A stretch of 55,870 bases of DNA from a virus. A program made the translations under genes and the position numbers. Under the pieces are notes generated by a model that saw only the letters and a program-made list of their open reading frames with translations, did not search any database and was not told where the DNA came from. The stretch's first letter is position 1, and every line of letters begins with the position of its first letter. Location of the stretch: positions 1 to 55,870 of IMG/VR virus record IMGVR_UViG_3300021961_000124; one strand, written 5' to 3'. Shown here piece by piece: positions 27,790-47,524 of the stretch.

Positions 27790-29061
27790 TTAATTTCTTA
27801 CTATACCTCTTTGAGCTTTAAGTTGATTGTATCCTTCATCATCTAAGTGTGTAATAGCAAGCCAAGCATGAGTCATCTCATCCGCAGTTCTACTACCGCC
27901 TACTACCCAAAAATCTGGGTCTGGATTGTTTGGATTGTTTGCAGTATTGTCATACCACTGTTTTAAAATAATAACTGCACCTGCAGGTATTAGTGGTGCT
28001 ACATCAGGAGCGTACAAGTGACTGTGATGCCATGTTGCACTCCAGTTTGATATTTGACTTATTGCTTCTGTTCTGCCAGTTTCGGGATAAAATATTTCCA
28101 AACTTGCAGCATTCATACGCAAGTGGCCATGCGGTTGAAAACTATCTAAACGCACAGGATGATCGAAACTGTGAAAGCCCTGCGTCATTGCATATCCATT
28201 GGGTGGGACTACTAAGTCGTCCTGATTGCCAAGGCGATACAAACTCAAATCTTGTTTGTATTTCAGTTGTGCGCTTTCCTCTTCTGTGTATAACCAAAGA
28301 CCAATCTCTACCACGTTGTCTTTGATAACTGATCCTGGAGCCATTGCGCCAAGCCCACCAGGGAACATGTGTATATCCCAACTTACTTCTGCATTTGCTG
28401 GAATAGTACGGCACACCCCTTGTGGTACTATCTCTCCCCACTTTCCCATAGCATACTCTGTAAGCATACCTTCACGCCCTTCTGCTGTTATAATACTTGA
28501 GTTTGCATGATGTACTACACTTTTAGCATTGCCACGTGGTTTAACTTGTACTGCTTTGATACAACGGTCTTCAGTTAACCCTGTTGGTACTAAATGCTTG
28601 TGCCACATATCATTACCACTTGCAGGAATGTCTATTGCTACTGAAGGAATAATTGCATCAGGTAAACCAAAGTCTTCTTCAAAGTTCCACGCTTCTGGAT
28701 CTCGCATTTCTGGTAGTTGTACTACAACATCAGCATTACCATAAGGTGAACCTGCATTTACCCATGCTACTACAGCATCAATTTCTTCTTGTGATAAACG
28801 CCAGTCACCTTGCAGGTCCTGTATGCCAATACCATGATCGTATGCATAAGGAGGCATTTCTCTATTGGCTACTCTCATTTGTATAAGAGGAGCCCACGGT
28901 CTTACTTGCTCGTATGTTTCAAAACTCATTGGTCCGATGCCACCAGGACGGTGACACGTTACACAGTTATTGTTTATGATTTCAGCAACATTATCTGTAT
29001 AGGTTTGTGCAGCCAGTGTAACTGGGATTAAGGCTGCGAATAGTGCAACTAGGTGTTTCAT
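27790..29061 (-). CDS. Secreted cytochrome c / copper monooxygenase-like fusion protein
   Basis: 423 aa. Signal peptide MKHLVALFAALIPVTLAAQ. Residues ~20-108 form a cytochrome c domain with heme site CVTCH (33-37), probable axial Met69 (NREMPPY) and the EEIDAVVAWVNAGSPYG ending. Residues ~130-410 match type II, ascorbate-dependent copper monooxygenases (PHM fold): His184-His185 (VVHHAN) and His231 (DIHMF) as the CuH set, His311/His313 (PHGHLR) and Met396 (DEMTHAW) as the CuM set, plus WYDNTANNPNNPDP. Predicted periplasmic; substrate unknown. Start 29061 is chosen for AGGAGAAA seven bases upstream. Confidence 0.85.
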   Translation of the reverse strand: MKHLVALFAALIPVTLAAQTYTDNVAEIINNNCVTCHRPGGIGPMSFETYEQVRPWAPLIQMRVANREMPPYAYDHGIGIQDLQGDWRLSQEEIDAVVAWVNAGSPYGNADVVVQLPEMRDPEAWNFEEDFGLPDAIIPSVAIDIPASGNDMWHKHLVPTGLTEDRCIKAVQVKPRGNAKSVVHHANSSIITAEGREGMLTEYAMGKWGEIVPQGVCRTIPANAEVSWDIHMFPGGLGAMAPGSVIKDNVVEIGLWLYTEEESAQLKYKQDLSLYRLGNQDDLVVPPNGYAMTQGFHSFDHPVRLDSFQPHGHLRMNAASLEIFYPETGRTEAISQISNWSATWHHSHLYAPDVAPLIPAGAVIILKQWYDNTANNPNNPDPDFWVVGGSRTADEMTHAWLAITHLDDEGYNQLKAQRGIVRN

Positions 29062-29147
29062 ATAATTTCTCCTGAGGAACAATTATATTTAAACACATTT
29101 TTTGCAAAATACAACCTAAACTTGTAAAATGTTACAATTTATTACAA

Positions 29148-37063: not shown

Positions 37064-37453
37064 ATGGCACTAGCATTTCAAATTGACGAATTTCAAACAA
37101 TACTTAAAAAAGCAGACGGAAAAATCTTACGATCCAATGCTAGACCTCCTATGAGCTTTGATTATGAGGTTTTAACATTTACCGAACAAGATAAAAGTCG
37201 ATTTTGGGCAGGTCAGCGATATAATCTAACTACTGACGAAATAGCTGAAGTACAGGCTTATGTTGACAGTGTTGAAGAGGACACTAACCTAACAGATCAC
37301 ATGACTGTGATTCATCAAGCTAAAAAAATACTTGCAGCAACTGACTGGTACGTTGTTAGGTTGTTAGAAACTGGAACTCCTGTTCCAGAGGACATATCTA
37401 ATATGAGAACACTTGCTCGAAAAAATATAAACGATGCAGAATCAAATATGTAA
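37064..37453 (+). CDS. Tail-assembly chaperone-like protein
   Basis: 129 aa from MALAFQIDEFQTILKKADGK, preceded by TAGGAT. The C-terminal part AATDWYVVRLLETGTPVPED then ISNMRTLARKNI fits the phage tail-assembly chaperone pattern (DW...R..E.G.pvP.....R..lR), commonly found after fibre genes. Predicted to help fold or attach the neighbouring fibres. Overlaps the halogenase start by 20 bases. Confidence 0.6.
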   Translation: MALAFQIDEFQTILKKADGKILRSNARPPMSFDYEVLTFTEQDKSRFWAGQRYNLTTDEIAEVQAYVDSVEEDTNLTDHMTVIHQAKKILAATDWYVVRLLETGTPVPEDISNMRTLARKNINDAESNM

Positions 37454-38885
37454 TGTAGTAATTGTTGGTGGCGGCACGGCCGGCTGGAGCACGGCTGCAT
37501 TACTGTCGTCTAATCCTAAAATTAATGTTACAGTAATAGAACCTAGTGACATTCCTACTATAGGAGTAGGCGAAAGTACTATACCTTATATTAACATAAT
37601 TCATCAAAAGATGAAGTTGTCAGTATTCAATACATCAGAATGGCTTAAAGAAGTTAACGGTACGTTAAAATTTAGTATTGAATTTGCGGATTACCACAAA
37701 CTAAATCATAAATGGATTCATCCGTTTACAAGCAACTTAACCCAAGATGACAACATAACTAATCTTACTTGTAGCAGTCAGCTTCCGTTGAATGTATATC
37801 AAGATCAACCTGACTTTGTTATAGACAATTATTCTTTTCCTAACTTGTGTAATCGTCAGTTCACTCACTACTACGACCAAGACAAATTTGTAATGACACC
37901 AACATCTGGCTATCATATTGATGCTGTTCGTTATGCTAATCTACTTAAAAGAGAAAGTCTTAAACGTGATAACTGCAATTGCCTAGATTTAAAAATTAGC
38001 AAAGTTGTAGTTGACGAGAACAACTATGTTAAAGAACTGCTAACAACATCTAACGATGCTATACATGCAGATTTGTTTATAGATTGCACTGGATTCAGTG
38101 CAATACTGTCTAATGCAGTTGGAAGCAAGTGGGATGATTCTTACAGTAAACGATTATTTGTTGATACAGCATTAGCAATACAGTTGCCATACATAGATGA
38201 AAAAACGCAAATGCGCAATACAACGTATTGCCATGCATTAGGATATGGATGGGTATGGAACGTTCCTTTGCAAAATCGTATCGGAACAGGCTATGTATAC
38301 AGTTCAAAATACACATCACAAGAAGCTGCTACTGAAGAATTTAAACAACACTTGCACAGCAAATACGGATATAACAAGGATGAACTAGAATTTAGAAAAG
38401 TTCCGTTCAATGTTGGTATGCGTCCCGAATCTTGGAAAAACAATGTAGTAGCTGTAGGTCTAAGCAGCTTCTTTTTAGAACCAATCGAAAGTACAGCAAT
38501 TGCACATCTGCAACATCAAGCAGTTACTATACTTAATATGTTAGAGTCAAATTGGATTTCAGTTGAAAATAAAAGAAAAAGGTTTAACAGTCTAAACAAA
38601 TCGAGTTTAGATGCTATAGCAAGTTATATTGAGCAGCACTATATCTTCTCTGATAGACAAGATACAGAATTTTGGAGGGCTTTTACTAGCCTAGAACTGA
38701 CTGATGCACAGAAACAAATTTTAAAAGCGTTCACGGACAGTGAAATAACTTTTAATGCACAGTATGCGAAAACACACTATGACGGGCATAGTTTATTTTC
38801 GCAAAGTAGCTATATGTTTCTGTTTTTAGGATACGATATTGCGCCTAATCAGACAACTGACCGGATTCGACAATATCTTTTCTAA
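37434..38885 (+). CDS. Flavin-dependent (tryptophan-type) halogenase
   Basis: 483 aa. FAD motif VVIVGGGTAGWSTAALL at residues 8-24, the GVGESTIP motif at about 44-51, the catalytic Lys79 (NGTLKFSIEF) at the same residue number as PrnA, the halogenase WxWxxP signature as WVWNVP (273-278), and Glu352 in LEPIEST. Uses FADH2, O2 and halide through HOCl to halogenate an aromatic or alkene-type substrate. A flavin reductase is not seen here. Phage halogenases exist (cyanophage VirX1 is characterised), so activity is plausible; the substrate is unknown. The 3' end overlaps a convergent gene. Confidence 0.9.
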   Translation: MQNQICNVVIVGGGTAGWSTAALLSSNPKINVTVIEPSDIPTIGVGESTIPYINIIHQKMKLSVFNTSEWLKEVNGTLKFSIEFADYHKLNHKWIHPFTSNLTQDDNITNLTCSSQLPLNVYQDQPDFVIDNYSFPNLCNRQFTHYYDQDKFVMTPTSGYHIDAVRYANLLKRESLKRDNCNCLDLKISKVVVDENNYVKELLTTSNDAIHADLFIDCTGFSAILSNAVGSKWDDSYSKRLFVDTALAIQLPYIDEKTQMRNTTYCHALGYGWVWNVPLQNRIGTGYVYSSKYTSQEAATEEFKQHLHSKYGYNKDELEFRKVPFNVGMRPESWKNNVVAVGLSSFFLEPIESTAIAHLQHQAVTILNMLESNWISVENKRKRFNSLNKSSLDAIASYIEQHYIFSDRQDTEFWRAFTSLELTDAQKQILKAFTDSEITFNAQYAKTHYDGHSLFSQSSYMFLFLGYDIAPNQTTDRIRQYLF

Positions 38886-44565: not shown

Positions 44566-44641
44566 TGGAGTAGCGGATGGGATTCGAACCCACATTATAC
44601 AGTTTTGCAGACTGCTGCCTAACCGCTCGGCGCACCGCTAC
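44566..44641 (-). tRNA. tRNA-Cys (GCA)
   Basis: Seven perfect acceptor pairs (GTAGCGG/CCGCTAC), discriminator T, encoded CCA. Anticodon loop CTGCAAA closed by GCAGT/ACTGT. T loop TTCGAAT is present. Confidence 0.93.
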
Positions 44642-44646
44642 ATATA

Positions 44647-44733
44647 TGGTGGGGAAGGATGGATTTGCACCAACTCACCTGTAAAGGAACGGATTTACAG
44701 TCCGCCGCGACTCTCTAACTTCGCCGCTTCCCC
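44647..44733 (-). tRNA. tRNA-Tyr (GTA)
   Basis: Acceptor GGGGAAG/CTTCCCC, discriminator A, encoded CCA. Anticodon loop CTGTAAA; long variable arm as expected for bacterial tRNA-Tyr. The T loop reads TGCAAAT rather than TTCGAAT, which is slightly unusual. Confidence 0.92.
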
Positions 44734-44738
44734 AAATT

Positions 44739-44813
44739 TGGCATAGGTGGAGAGATTCGAACTCCCATCGCAAGGTTTTGGAGACCTGCATCTTGCCATT
44801 AGACCACACCCAT
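44739..44813 (-). tRNA. tRNA-Trp (CCA)
   Basis: Acceptor ATGGGTG/CACCTAT with one G-U pair, discriminator G (the bacterial Trp identity), encoded CCA. Anticodon loop CTCCAAA; the outermost anticodon-stem pair is a C/T mismatch. Confidence 0.9.
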
Positions 44814-44824
44814 ATTCAACTCAT

Positions 44825-44858
44825 AAAAAAAGCCCCTAATATTGCTACTAGGGGCTTT
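44825..44858 (-). terminator. Strong rho-independent terminator between the leader ORF and tRNA-Trp
   Basis: Minus-strand stem AAAGCCCCTA/TAGGGGCTTT, ten perfect pairs, 10-base loop, then TTTT extending to a T7 run. Lies 22 bases after the stop of the 20-codon ORF and 12 bases before the 5' end of tRNA-Trp. Confidence 0.85.
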
Positions 44859-44879
44859 CAGAACGTATTAAAAATCACG

Positions 44880-44942
44880 TCAAGACATACCCCACCATTT
44901 TGATAGGCACCAACGATAATACATTGTAGTTGTCTTGAACAT
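44880..44942 (-). CDS. 20-codon leader-type ORF rich in Tyr/Trp/Cys
   Basis: MFKTTTMYYRW then CLSKWWGMS and TGA. It has a good AAAGGAA ribosome-binding site and is preceded by a sigma70 promoter and two late promoters and followed by a terminator, so it is the only coding capacity of a transcript of about 140 bases. It holds three Trp, two Tyr and one Cys codon, the three amino acids of the tRNA genes directly downstream. It could be a regulatory leader peptide or a small functional peptide. No homologue is known to me. Confidence 0.6.
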   Translation of the reverse strand: MFKTTTMYYRWCLSKWWGMS

Positions 44943-44962
44943 GTTAATATTCCTTTGTTTAG

Positions 44963-45000
44963 TATTTATATACTATACTTTATTTATAATCTTTTGTCAA
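44963..45000 (-). promoter_or_regulatory. Compound promoter: sigma70 plus two TATAAATA late boxes
   Basis: Minus strand TTGACA (44995-45000), 17-base spacer, TATAGT (44972-44977). Exact TATAAATA octamers lie at 44981-44988 (within the spacer) and 44963-44970. The unit could thus be read early and late. Confidence 0.75.
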
Positions 45001-45011
45001 CCATTATTTTT

Positions 45012-45037
45012 AAAAAAGATCGGCACGTATGCCGACC
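45012..45037 (-). terminator. Rho-independent terminator after tRNA-Ala
   Basis: Minus-strand stem GGTCGGCA/TGCCGATC (one G-U pair), TACG loop, then TTTTTTA. It separates tRNA-Ala from the compound promoter of the leader unit. Confidence 0.85.
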
Positions 45038-45131: not shown

Positions 45132-45602
45132 TTAGAACTTAAAGTTAATACCAACAGTTGCAACATCACGTGGTGTGTTGCCGTCCCAGTCGTTAACGTA
45201 GCGATAACGAACGTCTAGGTCTACTGATTCGGTAATTCCGTAGCGAATTCCACCGCCAACGTTATAGGTCTTTACATCACCTTCTAGTGCCCAACGATAG
45301 CCAACACCTGCTAGTACATATGGTGTAAAACTATTGATTGTAACGCTAGGAACAACGTTTAAAGCGATGTTCTTTTCTTCTGACTTACTGTAGTCGAAAG
45401 TCCCTTCAACGCCAATGTTAATACCAGTCATTGATGCAACGTTCTTGCCTGCAACAACACCGATACTCCAAGGTGCGTCTGTATTAATGCCATCGGATAT
45501 GTTGCCGCCAAATGTGCCGCCAACATATGTATCCTTAGCAAATGCACTAGTTGCTCCTGCCAATGCTAGAGCTGTGGTTAGTGCGATCAAAGTCTTTCTC
45601 AT
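45132..45602 (-). CDS. Outer-membrane beta-barrel protein (opacity/OmpA-barrel type)
   Basis: 156 aa. Signal peptide MRKTLIALTTALALAGATSA with a cut near AFA-KDTY, then alternating strands (TYVGGTFGGNISDG, INIGVEGTFDYSK, TPYVLAGVGYRWAL, VDLDVRYRYVNDW) ending in VATVGINFKF with the C-terminal Phe used by the BAM insertion machinery. This predicts an eight-stranded barrel in the host outer membrane. It may change the cell surface during infection, for example to block superinfection; this is inference. AAAGGAAAC precedes the ATG. Confidence 0.85.
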   Translation of the reverse strand: MRKTLIALTTALALAGATSAFAKDTYVGGTFGGNISDGINTDAPWSIGVVAGKNVASMTGINIGVEGTFDYSKSEEKNIALNVVPSVTINSFTPYVLAGVGYRWALEGDVKTYNVGGGIRYGITESVDLDVRYRYVNDWDGNTPRDVATVGINFKF

Positions 45603-45664: not shown

Positions 45665-45741
45665 TGGTCCGAGTGGAGAGATTCGAACTCCCGACCCATT
45701 GGTCCCAAACCAATTGCGCTACCAGACTGCGCTACACTCGG
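45665..45741 (-). tRNA. tRNA-Pro (TGG)
   Basis: Acceptor CCGAGTG/CACTCGG, discriminator A, encoded CCA. Anticodon loop TTTGGGA closed by ATTGG/CCAAT. Confidence 0.94.
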
Positions 45742-45746
45742 ATTTT

Positions 45747-45833
45747 TTACCATCTAAAGAATAAAGATGCTATAAACATCCCTATAATCAAAGGTACTGT
45801 TAGTAAAACTGCTGTAAAAACTACTTCAGTCAT
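45747..45833 (-). CDS. 28-aa membrane peptide
   Basis: MTEVVFTAVLLTVPLIIGMF then IASLFFRW: one membrane helix with a basic end. Its ATG overlaps the stop of the lipoprotein gene as ATGA, which supports it as a translated, coupled gene. Function unknown; lysis accessory peptide is one possibility. Confidence 0.55.
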   Translation of the reverse strand: MTEVVFTAVLLTVPLIIGMFIASLFFRW

Positions 45834-46033
45834 GACCAACATACCTTTGATATGTTTACACCAGTACTTGTTTTTTCTTCAGTATATTTACAAAAAAGTA
45901 ATGGTCTCTCTGGGGGTAATGGCATATAATCTGCCGGAATTACCCCCAGAGGTACTATCCGTTCGTCTACATATGTTGCACTACAACCTGCAAGGGTCAT
46001 AGCTAAAAGTATAAAAAACGGTATTTTAATCAT
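45830..46033 (-). CDS. Small lipoprotein, possible outer-membrane spanin-like
   Basis: 67 aa. Signal MIKIPFFILLAMTLAGC has a lipobox LAGC (Cys17), so the mature part is ~51 aa anchored by lipid. It is Pro-rich (VIPADYMPLPPERPLLF), like Rz1-type o-spanins, with two later Cys. The matching inner-membrane i-spanin is not seen; the partner overlapping downstream is only a 28-aa membrane peptide, so the spanin idea is weak. Confidence 0.65.
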   Translation of the reverse strand: MIKIPFFILLAMTLAGCSATYVDERIVPLGVIPADYMPLPPERPLLFCKYTEEKTSTGVNISKVCWS

Positions 46034-46036
46034 AGT

Positions 46037-46399
46037 TTAGCCTGCGCTTCTTGTTATAAAGTTTACTCGTACTTTTGTTGGCTTGAAATACTTTTCGATA
46101 GTATCCTGTGCAATGCCAATGTCAACTGGCTTACACGAGAAAATATCAATATAAGCATCACCATTAATATCAACTAGGTGTCCACTTATATTGCTAGTCT
46201 CAATCATCTGACAGAAACTAATTCCTGCCTTGTCTGGGGCATGGGTAGCAAAGTGTTCAATCATTGGCTCCCCAAATGCAACCATATCAATGGCTGGTAC
46301 TAACTCTTTAATAAACTTATACACATTATCTTTGCTTGCTACTAATTCCTTATCACAAGCGGCGCAATCAAACATTGCATGATAACCCCAGTATGCCAT
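46037..46399 (-). CDS. SpeD-like (AdoMet decarboxylase family) protein, copy 1
   Basis: 120 aa from MAYWGYHAMFDCAACDKELV (AAAGGAA upstream). SpeD family features: the GxHxxxDCxxCD start, KAGISFCQMIETSNISGHLV and AYIDIFSCKPVDIGIAQDTI. Ser69, His74 and Cys89 have the same +5/+20 spacing as Ser63/His68/Cys83 of T. maritima AdoMet decarboxylase, but the Glu before the pyruvoyl-forming Ser is Thr and the following His is Asn. It may be a pyruvoyl-dependent decarboxylase of altered specificity. Longer in-frame codons upstream read through tRNA-Leu and are excluded. Confidence 0.8.
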   Translation of the reverse strand: MAYWGYHAMFDCAACDKELVASKDNVYKFIKELVPAIDMVAFGEPMIEHFATHAPDKAGISFCQMIETSNISGHLVDINGDAYIDIFSCKPVDIGIAQDTIEKYFKPTKVRVNFITRSAG

Positions 46400-46436
46400 C
46401 AACAAATTCCTTTCCGTGTTCTCTAGGCATTGTGAT

Positions 46437-46519
46437 TGGTGCCCTTGGAGGGACTTGAACCCCCACGCTCTCGCACTAGAACCTAAATCTAGCGTGTCTA
46501 CCAATTTCACCACAAGGGC
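46437..46519 (-). tRNA. tRNA-Leu (TAG)
   Basis: Acceptor GCCCTTG/CAAGGGC, discriminator A, encoded CCA. Anticodon loop TTTAGGT closed by CTAGA/TCTAG; long variable arm. Confidence 0.94.
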
Positions 46520-46530
46520 ACTAACATATA

Positions 46531-46604
46531 TGGTGCCGGTACACAGAATCGAACTGCGAATTGATGATTACAAGTCAACTGTTATACCATTTAACTATAC
46601 CGGC
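46531..46604 (-). tRNA. tRNA-Thr (TGT)
   Basis: Acceptor GCCGGTA/TACCGGC, discriminator A, encoded CCA. Anticodon loop CTTGTAA; one T/T mismatch in the anticodon stem. Confidence 0.92.
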
Positions 46605-46622
46605 ACGGCAACTACTTTACTT

Positions 46623-46646
46623 ATTTGCTATTTGAAAATAGCAAAT
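46623..46646. repeat. 11-bp perfect inverted repeat between tRNA-Thr and tRNA-Gly
   Basis: ATTTGCTATTT (46623-46633) and AAATAGCAAAT (46636-46646) separated by only two bases, so a near-perfect palindrome of 24 bases. In RNA it forms a hairpin between the two tRNAs; no T-run follows, so it is more likely a processing signal or protein site than a terminator. Confidence 0.8.
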
Positions 46647-46652
46647 GAATTC

Positions 46653-46726
46653 TGGAGCGGGGTGCGGGAATCGAACCCGCGACTCTAGCTTGGAAGGCTA
46701 GGGTAATACCATTTTACGAACCCCGC
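46653..46726 (-). tRNA. tRNA-Gly (TCC)
   Basis: Acceptor GCGGGGT/ACCCCGC, discriminator T, encoded CCA. Anticodon loop CTTCCAA closed by CTAGC/GCTAG. Confidence 0.95.
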
Positions 46727-46734
46727 TTACTAAA

Positions 46735-46930
46735 AGTGCTTCCTCCCTGCGGCGGTAATTATACTGCATCAAGAGCCAGGAACCCCCAACCCCATCACAC
46801 ACAGCCTCCACCCGCTCCCCGACCAGGGAGGATTCTCGCATTGCCAGCGCCAGTTCGGTTAGACTGGAACCACCCGTGGCTATCACACCACTTCTCATCC
46901 TCCGGGTCAGAGTATCCGTTGATTAAACGG
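46735..46930 (-). other. GC-rich island of foreign character between tRNA-Gly and the second speD-like gene
   Basis: About 64% GC over 46771-46880 against under 40% around it. On the minus strand a frame from the ATG at 46898 reads MRSGVIATGGSSLTELALAM with about two-thirds G/C third positions, and runs into tRNA-Gly, stopping at 46698 inside it. Local hairpins are also possible (CCAGT/ACTGG and CTCCC/GGGAG). A TATAAT at about 46758 lies upstream of tRNA-Gly. It could be a foreign gene fragment, a structured RNA or an assembly artefact. Confidence 0.5.
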
Positions 46931-46939
46931 AACGTCCTT

Positions 46940-47305
46940 TTAATCCGCTTGTCGTGTAAGATAGTATTTTCGATATTTTTTGCATCCAAAAAACTCTTTC
47001 ATACTAGTCTCTACAACTGCTTGATCAAACGGTTTACAACTAAAAACATCCAAATAAATGTGTCCTAAGCTATCTACAAAGTGTGCTGTAATACTACTAG
47101 TTACTATTACCTGAACTACAGTAAAGCCCGCTTTGTCTAAGAATTTTTCCGCCGTATATTCGATTCGAGGTTCGCCAATTGGTTCCATATCAATATCAAC
47201 AACCAACTTTCGAATCCATCGATCAACGTTTGAAAAATCTGACATTAAACTATTATCACAGCCTGAACAATCTAATATTAGATGGTAACCCCAAAACGTA
47301 TTCAT
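46940..47305 (-). CDS. SpeD-like (AdoMet decarboxylase family) protein, copy 2
   Basis: 121 aa, MNTFWGYHLILDCSGCDNSL start with GGGAGG upstream. It parallels copy 1 along the whole length: KAGFTVVQVIVTSSITAHFV and HIYLDVFSCKPFDQAVVETS. Ser70, His75 and Cys90 keep the family triad spacing (+5, +20), and the residue before the Ser is again Thr instead of Glu. The two copies differ at most other positions, so the duplication is old or they came from different sources. May form a hetero-oligomer with copy 1 (inference). Confidence 0.8.
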   Translation of the reverse strand: MNTFWGYHLILDCSGCDNSLMSDFSNVDRWIRKLVVDIDMEPIGEPRIEYTAEKFLDKAGFTVVQVIVTSSITAHFVDSLGHIYLDVFSCKPFDQAVVETSMKEFFGCKKYRKYYLTRQAD

Positions 47306-47353
47306 AATCCTCCCATATTGAAAAACACTCAGAAATGCGTTTCAATATAGAAT

Positions 47354-47443
47354 TGGCGGAAGTGGTAGGATTCGAACCCACGGAAGAGTCTCCCCTTCAA
47401 CTGATTAGTAATCAGCCGCCTTAAGCCACTCGGCCACACTTCC
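47354..47443 (-). tRNA. tRNA-Ser with unusual anticodon ACT
   Basis: Acceptor GGAAGTG/CACTTCC, discriminator G, encoded CCA, long variable arm. Anticodon loop TTACTAA closed by CTGA/TCAG gives ACT, where bacterial genomes normally have GCT for AGC/AGT. Confidence 0.88.
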
Positions 47444-47449
47444 TAACTT

Positions 47450-47524
47450 TGGCTCCCCAGGATGGACTCGAACCACCGACCAAAAGATTAACAGTCTTCT
47501 GCGCTACCACTGCGCCACTGGGGA
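47450..47524 (-). tRNA. tRNA-Asn (GTT)
   Basis: Acceptor TCCCCAG/CTGGGGA, discriminator G, encoded CCA. Anticodon loop CTGTTAA. Confidence 0.94.

Follow-up and report, generated by a model that had tools for sequence, protein, structure and literature searches.

A Trp-led tRNA operon in large uncultured phages is predicted to be controlled by a trp-type attenuator with several tRNA inputs

In a family of large uncultured phages, a tRNA operon headed by tRNA-Trp is very probably (at about nine chances in ten, in our estimate) governed by a ribosome-mediated transcription attenuator of the trp type that is tuned to several tRNAs. This reading is comparative and computational throughout, and concerns a unit on the minus strand of a virus record of 55,870 bases (the window, which here designates the whole stretch of DNA analyzed) together with 59 distinct leader/array combinations, from 63 IMG/VR loci, that keep the order promoter, leader, terminator, and tRNA-Trp. 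Each of the 59 has an open ORF of ~15–22 codons, a terminator and a tRNA array, and tRNA-Trp is the first gene of every array (59/59). The parts of the unit, their conservation, the matching of leader codons to the tRNA array and the alternative RNA pairings were computed here. Taken alone, the codon match seen in the window could be luck; judged from their sequences, the relatives settle the question against luck.

The elements of the unit (Table 1) had been proposed in the initial annotation of this DNA, which placed a terminator, a promoter, a ribosome-binding site, a 20-codon ORF, a second terminator and genes for tRNA-Trp, tRNA-Tyr, and tRNA-Cys in that order on the minus strand, and all of them were located as described. 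The upstream terminator is the insulator that separates the leader unit from a unit formed by tRNA-Ala and an outer-membrane protein. The latter gene (45132–45602, minus strand) encodes a beta-barrel protein (PF13505) with an apparent signal peptide and lies directly 5' of tRNA-Ala. The leader contains three TGG, two TAT, and one TGC codon, as had been counted, and has no Pro codon, which is usual at the sensor in the relatives; the tRNA-Pro of the window lies outside the operon, at 45665–45741. Two copies of TATAAATA at the promoter had been taken for late boxes. The strings exist, but the window holds four of them against 6.7 expected by chance, and the late-promoter reading is not supported; what nearly all relatives keep is TTGACA and a TATA-like -10 element upstream of the leader.

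Table 1. Elements of the leader–tRNA unit and its surroundings in the window.
Feature	Position	Strand	Basis or remark
Intrinsic terminator GGTCGGCATACGTGCCGATCTTTTTT	45012–45037	−	Read directly and by terminator scan (the scan lists the reverse complement)
Sigma70-type promoter TTGACA-17-TATAGT	44972–45000	−	11/12 match
Leader ribosome-binding site AAGGA	44951–44955	−	Read from the sequence; aaggaatattaac-type spacing kept in relatives
Leader ORF MFKTTTMYYRWCLSKWWGMS, 20 codons, stop TGA	44880–44942	−	ORF translation; open in 59/59 distinct relatives
Sensor codons TAT TAT CGT TGG TGC (Tyr Tyr Arg Trp Cys)	44907–44921	−	Tyr, Trp and Cys correspond to the downstream tRNAs
RNA region 1 CAUGUUCAAGACA	44931–44943	−	Predicted partner of region 2 (1:2 helix, anti-antiterminator); fold and start/stop covariation
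RNA region 2 GGGGUAUGUCUUGACGUG	44876–44893	−	Spans last codons and stop codon; predicted partner of region 1 or region 3
RNA region 3 CUGAAAGCCCC	44851–44861	−	Predicted partner of region 2 (antiterminator) or region 4 (terminator)
Terminator of the attenuator (3:4 hairpin, T7 run)	44825–44858	−	-20.8 kcal/mol, z -6.1; separates the leader from the tRNA genes
tRNA-Trp (cca), first regulated gene	44739–44813	−	tRNA scan
tRNA-Tyr (gta)	44647–44733	−	tRNA scan
tRNA-Cys (gca), last gene of the unit	44566–44641	−	tRNA scan
Next promoter TTGACA-16-TATAAT, after tRNA-Cys	44556–44529	−	Promoter scan

The relatives were gathered in two ways. A first search used a neighboring 99-aa protein as query and was therefore blind to the leader; it recovered the leader unit in all seven loci showing a Trp-led array (L007, L008, L009, L012, L013, L016, and L017). 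Later pattern scans of IMG/VR took the end of the leader and the 5' part of the terminator as search criteria, so that these two features are conserved partly by construction, while the open ORF, the codon matches, the position of tRNA-Trp, and the 1:2 pairing were not among the criteria. One further leader (L057) is followed by a tRNA that was missed by ARAGORN but has a CCA anticodon loop, and then by tRNA-Cys. A covariance model of the leader RNA, built from 54 leaders, found a single copy in every one of 13 large records, the largest of 275 kb, and gave no match in four cultured jumbo phages (phi30-3, Phosso, Atu_ph07, and XacN1); in a DNA similarity search against cultured phages, essentially only the tRNA genes matched. 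With the leader as query, the sole match was to an unrelated terminator of Vibrio phages. Bacterial and archaeal genomes yielded one real copy among 67 pattern hits, on a contig of a Marinimicrobia MAG that we take to be phage, and the leader unit was absent from the relatives of the upstream outer-membrane protein (L003–L006). The clamp loader of the window is closest to those of PA5oct-like jumbo phages (Arenbergviridae), at 55%. Elsewhere, the window encodes a flavoprotein of the tryptophan-halogenase family (37434–38885, plus strand; PF04820, E 3e-102) and a protein with a likely signal peptide and, near its N-terminus, a cytochrome c-like stretch with a weak match (27790–29082, minus strand). 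The tRNA genes of the window (45665–47524, minus strand) and its relatives fall into two sets, with Thr, Leu, Gly, Ala, Asn, and Ser(gct/act) mostly outside the attenuated array, which in the window and relatives holds Trp, Cys, Pro, Ser(tga), Ile, Gln, and Tyr tRNAs.

The attenuator interpretation, first put forward in the initial annotation, is supported by leader codons that vary with the tRNA array across the 59 distinct loci. A comparison of relatives for joint conservation of the small ORF and the tRNAs, which that annotation had suggested, finds the ORF intact and a Trp codon present in every leader (59/59 for both), with the other codons following the array; frameshifted ORFs or freely varying Trp, Tyr, and Cys codons, which it had named as evidence against attenuation, were looked for in the 59 loci and are absent. 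When arrays were permuted 20,000 times within leader types, a cognate sensor codon was expected for 78.4 of the 115 non-Trp array tRNAs (sd 3.0, maximum 91), compared with the 105 observed. Individual leaders illustrate the fit: an array of Trp, Cys, and Ile(tat) tRNAs follows ATA TGT ATA ATA TGT TGG (L016), and one of Trp, Pro, and Cys follows ACA AAC ATT ACT TGT TGG (L012); where the array carries tRNA-Arg(acg) and no tRNA-Pro (L048), CGC CGC replaces the CCN CCN of other leaders, and where it carries Trp, Tyr, and Pro but no Cys (L154), TGG TAT replaces TGG TGC. The originally proposed sensing of Tyr and Cys along with Trp would apply to the window, but across the family the inputs are interchangeable, with Trp accompanied by Cys, Pro, Ser, Gln, Ile, Tyr, Arg, or Gly.

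The match extends to synonymous codons. At least two ATA codons are present in the leaders of all 14 arrays with an ATA-reading tRNA, against none of the 45 without (Fisher p=7.5e-14), and the choice among Ile codons, as ATA to ATT/ATC, is 42:5 in the former and 4:42 in the latter. Being a match at the synonymous level, it indicates, on comparative grounds, that the leader is built to read isoacceptors and not amino acids, and the earlier proposal that charged tRNA-Trp, -Tyr, and -Cys are sensed is thus upheld as to attenuation and amended as to the unit sensed, which would be the codon or isoacceptor. The ATA-reading class includes tRNAs annotated as Met(cat), counted as Ile2 because C4-G69 is present in six of six and their leaders carry ATA, not ATG; these tRNAs (arrays of L016, L022, L055, L092, L117, and L130) are probably lysidine-modified tRNA-Ile2 and not Met, a match against E. 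coli tRNAs for their identity having given no hit. With Met(cat) left out and Ile(tat) alone considered, the association gives p=7e-7. One Ile(tat) array (L088) was kept outside the codon test, as its contig ends inside the leader. Extra scans for family members returned many hits that were unrelated and few new leaders, none of which broke the ATA rule. The Ile(tat) tRNA is itself unusual for an isoleucine tRNA, being 92–94 nt in length and of class II shape, with an extended variable arm; it occurs in this form at L016:1851–1944 and in the arrays of L022, L051, L060, L081, L093, L109, L118, L129, and L157.

The loci are mutually related metagenomic contigs. The best tree, for which sequence outside the leader was used, implies ten changes of the ATA trait, and the codon trait equals the tRNA trait in 57 of 57 rows; support on this tree is weak, with only three well-supported independent pairs for ATA. 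A held-out case points the same way: the leader of L052, MIKTNATQSLSWCPPKGGMS, lacks ATA and has codons for Ser, Trp, Cys, and Pro, and the array, seen afterwards on the full contig, consists of Trp, Pro, Ser(tga), and Cys. A Gly codon 5' of Trp is restricted to the three leaders whose arrays include tRNA-Gly, even though tRNA-Gly(tcc) occurs 15 times outside the regulated array in the same loci, from which it follows that the leader mirrors its own operon and not the whole genome. Unmatched codons are nevertheless common, with a Cys codon in 18 of 24 arrays without tRNA-Cys and a Pro codon in 27 of 32 without tRNA-Pro, and Arg(gcg) arrays are a clear exception, a cognate codon being present in none of four. 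As far as the sequences can tell, the fit runs in one direction: almost all array tRNAs are matched by a sensor codon, but not every sensor codon has its tRNA in the array.

The leader RNA is predicted to adopt three mutually exclusive pairings. Region 2, from its GGGG onward, can pair with the 5' arm of the terminator (region 3). The initial annotation had noticed this GGGG:CCCC complementarity and thought it weak; it is predicted here to form the center of an alternative hairpin of 43 nt and -13.0 kcal/mol (z -2.6), and the antiterminator thus suspected is predicted in nearly all relatives (in L022, at -20.9 kcal/mol and z -5.7). Over 57 leaders, antiterminator and terminator are nearly equal in mean energy (-17.4 and -17.6 kcal/mol). 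A further pairing, beyond those in the annotation, joins region 1, from the start codon to codon 4, with region 2, that is, the start-codon region with the stop-codon region (-22.2 kcal/mol, z -3.6 in the window). Its two ends vary together: among 57 leaders, 42 combine ATG with TGA, 15 combine GTG with TAA, and none is mixed, and in 54 aligned leaders position 1 of the start codon forms A-U (39) or G-C (15) with the base opposite, with no exception. In the modeled folds, this third pairing completes the classical three-state attenuator. The pairs of the 3:4 terminator covary above shuffles. Fixed-column covariation of the 2:3 helix is at shuffle level (107/500) because the partner slides in register, and the same shift of register made RNAalifold unsuccessful on the antiterminator alignment; the predicted 2:3 helix draws its support from thermodynamics and conservation.

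Folding with and without a ribosome footprint, as had been suggested, gives the expected switch only when modeled co-transcriptionally. In such snapshots, placing a ribosome at the Trp codon gives a mean P(2:3) of 0.95 and placing it at the stop gives 0.00; without a ribosome the 1:2 helix forms first, with P(1:2) of 0.97. Full-length equilibrium folds give the terminator in nearly all loci and states and lack the antiterminator in most; since equilibrium favors the terminator, the predicted switch depends on the assumed order of folding and on an assumed separation of regions 1 and 2 by a stalled ribosome. The Trp codon lies 10–22 nt (mostly 13–19) upstream of the GGGG, a spacing that, in a model of stalling, corresponds to about the front edge of a ribosome stopped at Trp.

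Under the proposed mechanism, RNA polymerase would start at the sigma70-type promoter and a ribosome would enter the ~20-codon leader. With all the needed tRNAs available, this ribosome would reach the stop codon and cover region 2, allowing the 3:4 hairpin to form and transcription to end before the tRNA genes. Should any one of the sensed tRNAs become scarce (Trp in every case, Tyr and Cys in the window, and elsewhere Cys, Pro, Ser-UGA, Gln, AUA-reading Ile, Arg, or Gly), the ribosome would stall on the cognate codon and keep region 1 off region 2, so that region 2 would pair with region 3, no terminator would form and the tRNA operon would be transcribed. An RNA lacking a ribosome would form the 1:2 helix first, and termination would be favored. 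The product of the operon would be the very tRNA whose scarcity caused the stall, closing a negative feedback loop at the level of the isoacceptor. Stalling, read-through, and the tRNA shortage that triggers them, as well as transcription and ribosome occupancy in a real infection, are what we infer from the comparative evidence.

Three other accounts of the locus bear on this reading. The leader might encode an arrest peptide of the TnaC/ErmCL kind, or a small functional phage protein, whose sequence would matter in itself and to which the correlation with tRNAs would be secondary. An invariant Trp, a recurring C-W-P-P or W-C-P-P core, a G-M-S end and Pro codons retained even without tRNA-Pro could all be read in this manner, and Pro-Pro is known to slow ribosomes. 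The sensor residues, however, vary with the array, and so does the synonymous choice between ATA and ATT/ATC; the conserved N-terminus is explained by its pairing with the stop region, including the swap of start and stop codons, and the C-terminal residues are explained by region 2, with two leaders (L058 and L077) lacking the GMS end and stopping earlier, directly at the GGGG. We regard an arrest peptide as highly improbable. Even less credible is an ordinary constitutive promoter followed by a leaky terminator that sets a fixed tRNA level, with the ORF as an incidental feature. A promoter and a terminator alone could set expression, but they would not account for an ORF with a Trp codon that is open in 59 of 59 loci, for array-matched codons, for the covariation of start and stop codons (ATG/TGA versus GTG/TAA), or for the alternative pairings, and in its strict form this explanation is already refuted by conservation.

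The remaining account accepts the attenuator and differs in the signal, which would be host amino-acid starvation, as in the biosynthetic trp and his operons, and not the loss of tRNA. The mechanism would be identical to that of trpL and hisL, and Trp and Cys, which most leaders contain, tend to be the scarcest amino acids. Yet the genes controlled make tRNAs, not amino acids, and starvation would go unrelieved; moreover, the specificity for ATA points to an isoacceptor, since isoleucine starvation would also stall ribosomes at ATT and ATC. Starvation is accordingly an unlikely, though not negligible, signal for an attenuator that we otherwise read as tuned to tRNAs.

The reason why phages carry tRNAs has been debated for more than 50 years, with codon compensation on one side and replacement of tRNAs destroyed in the host on the other. 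Should the proposed attenuator operate, the phage would itself reveal when tRNAs become limiting and which ones, and this debate could be tested directly. Phage tRNA arrays have been proposed to counter host tRNA depletion by replacing the depleted tRNAs (PMC10264068), and this proposal makes host tRNA-cleaving defenses an attractive candidate for the trigger; plain demand arising from codon use in the phage would be equally compatible. The cited work deals with the sequences of tRNAs, and its text, which was searched, does not mention promoters, operons, leaders, or attenuation; the phage leader, by contrast, appears to measure the depletion. We give even odds to a more specific proposal, in which the leader would be a re-programmable, multi-input sensor of host isoacceptor loss during infection (for example, through anticodon nucleases) that switches on replacement tRNAs on demand, the set that it senses changing one codon at a time with the gain or loss of tRNA genes by the operon. 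The attenuator itself, should it work as proposed, would be, to our knowledge and among the papers searched, the first leader-peptide attenuator of tRNA genes; it would make the tRNA operon demand-driven and would serve as a natural tRNA sensor, codon-resolved, with inputs readable from sequence and perhaps reusable as a reporter.

Ribosome-mediated attenuation is known; what appears to be new is its application to tRNA genes and the evolution of its inputs in step with the tRNAs of the operon itself, a combination not found in the open-access literature searched or in Rfam. The papers searched described neither tRNA operons under attenuation nor regulation of tRNA arrays in phages, and Rfam showed no attenuator of tRNA genes. 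An Rfam scan of the window returned nothing at the gathering threshold for the leader, which scores 16.9 bits against Trp_leader (RF00513), below its 41-bit threshold, and no Rfam T-box match was obtained in the leader. Like T-box riboswitches, the phage unit would sense tRNA charging to control transcription termination, but T-boxes bind uncharged tRNA directly and without translation, whereas the phage unit has a translated ORF. The closer parallel is with trp-type attenuators (trpL, hisL, pheL, ilvL/thrL, and pheM before pheST), with which it shares a short leader ORF carrying regulatory codons and would share, as predicted, 1:2, 2:3, and 3:4 pairings that exclude one another and antitermination upon stalling; as for trpL, the ribosome is assumed to keep regions 1 and 2 apart. 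Among these, ilvL and thrL sense several amino acids. The phage leader departs from trp-type attenuators in controlling tRNA genes instead of biosynthetic enzymes or synthetases, in including the start codon in region 1 and the stop codon in region 2, and in having as its apparent inputs the products of its own operon, up to six tRNA species matched at the level of the codon.
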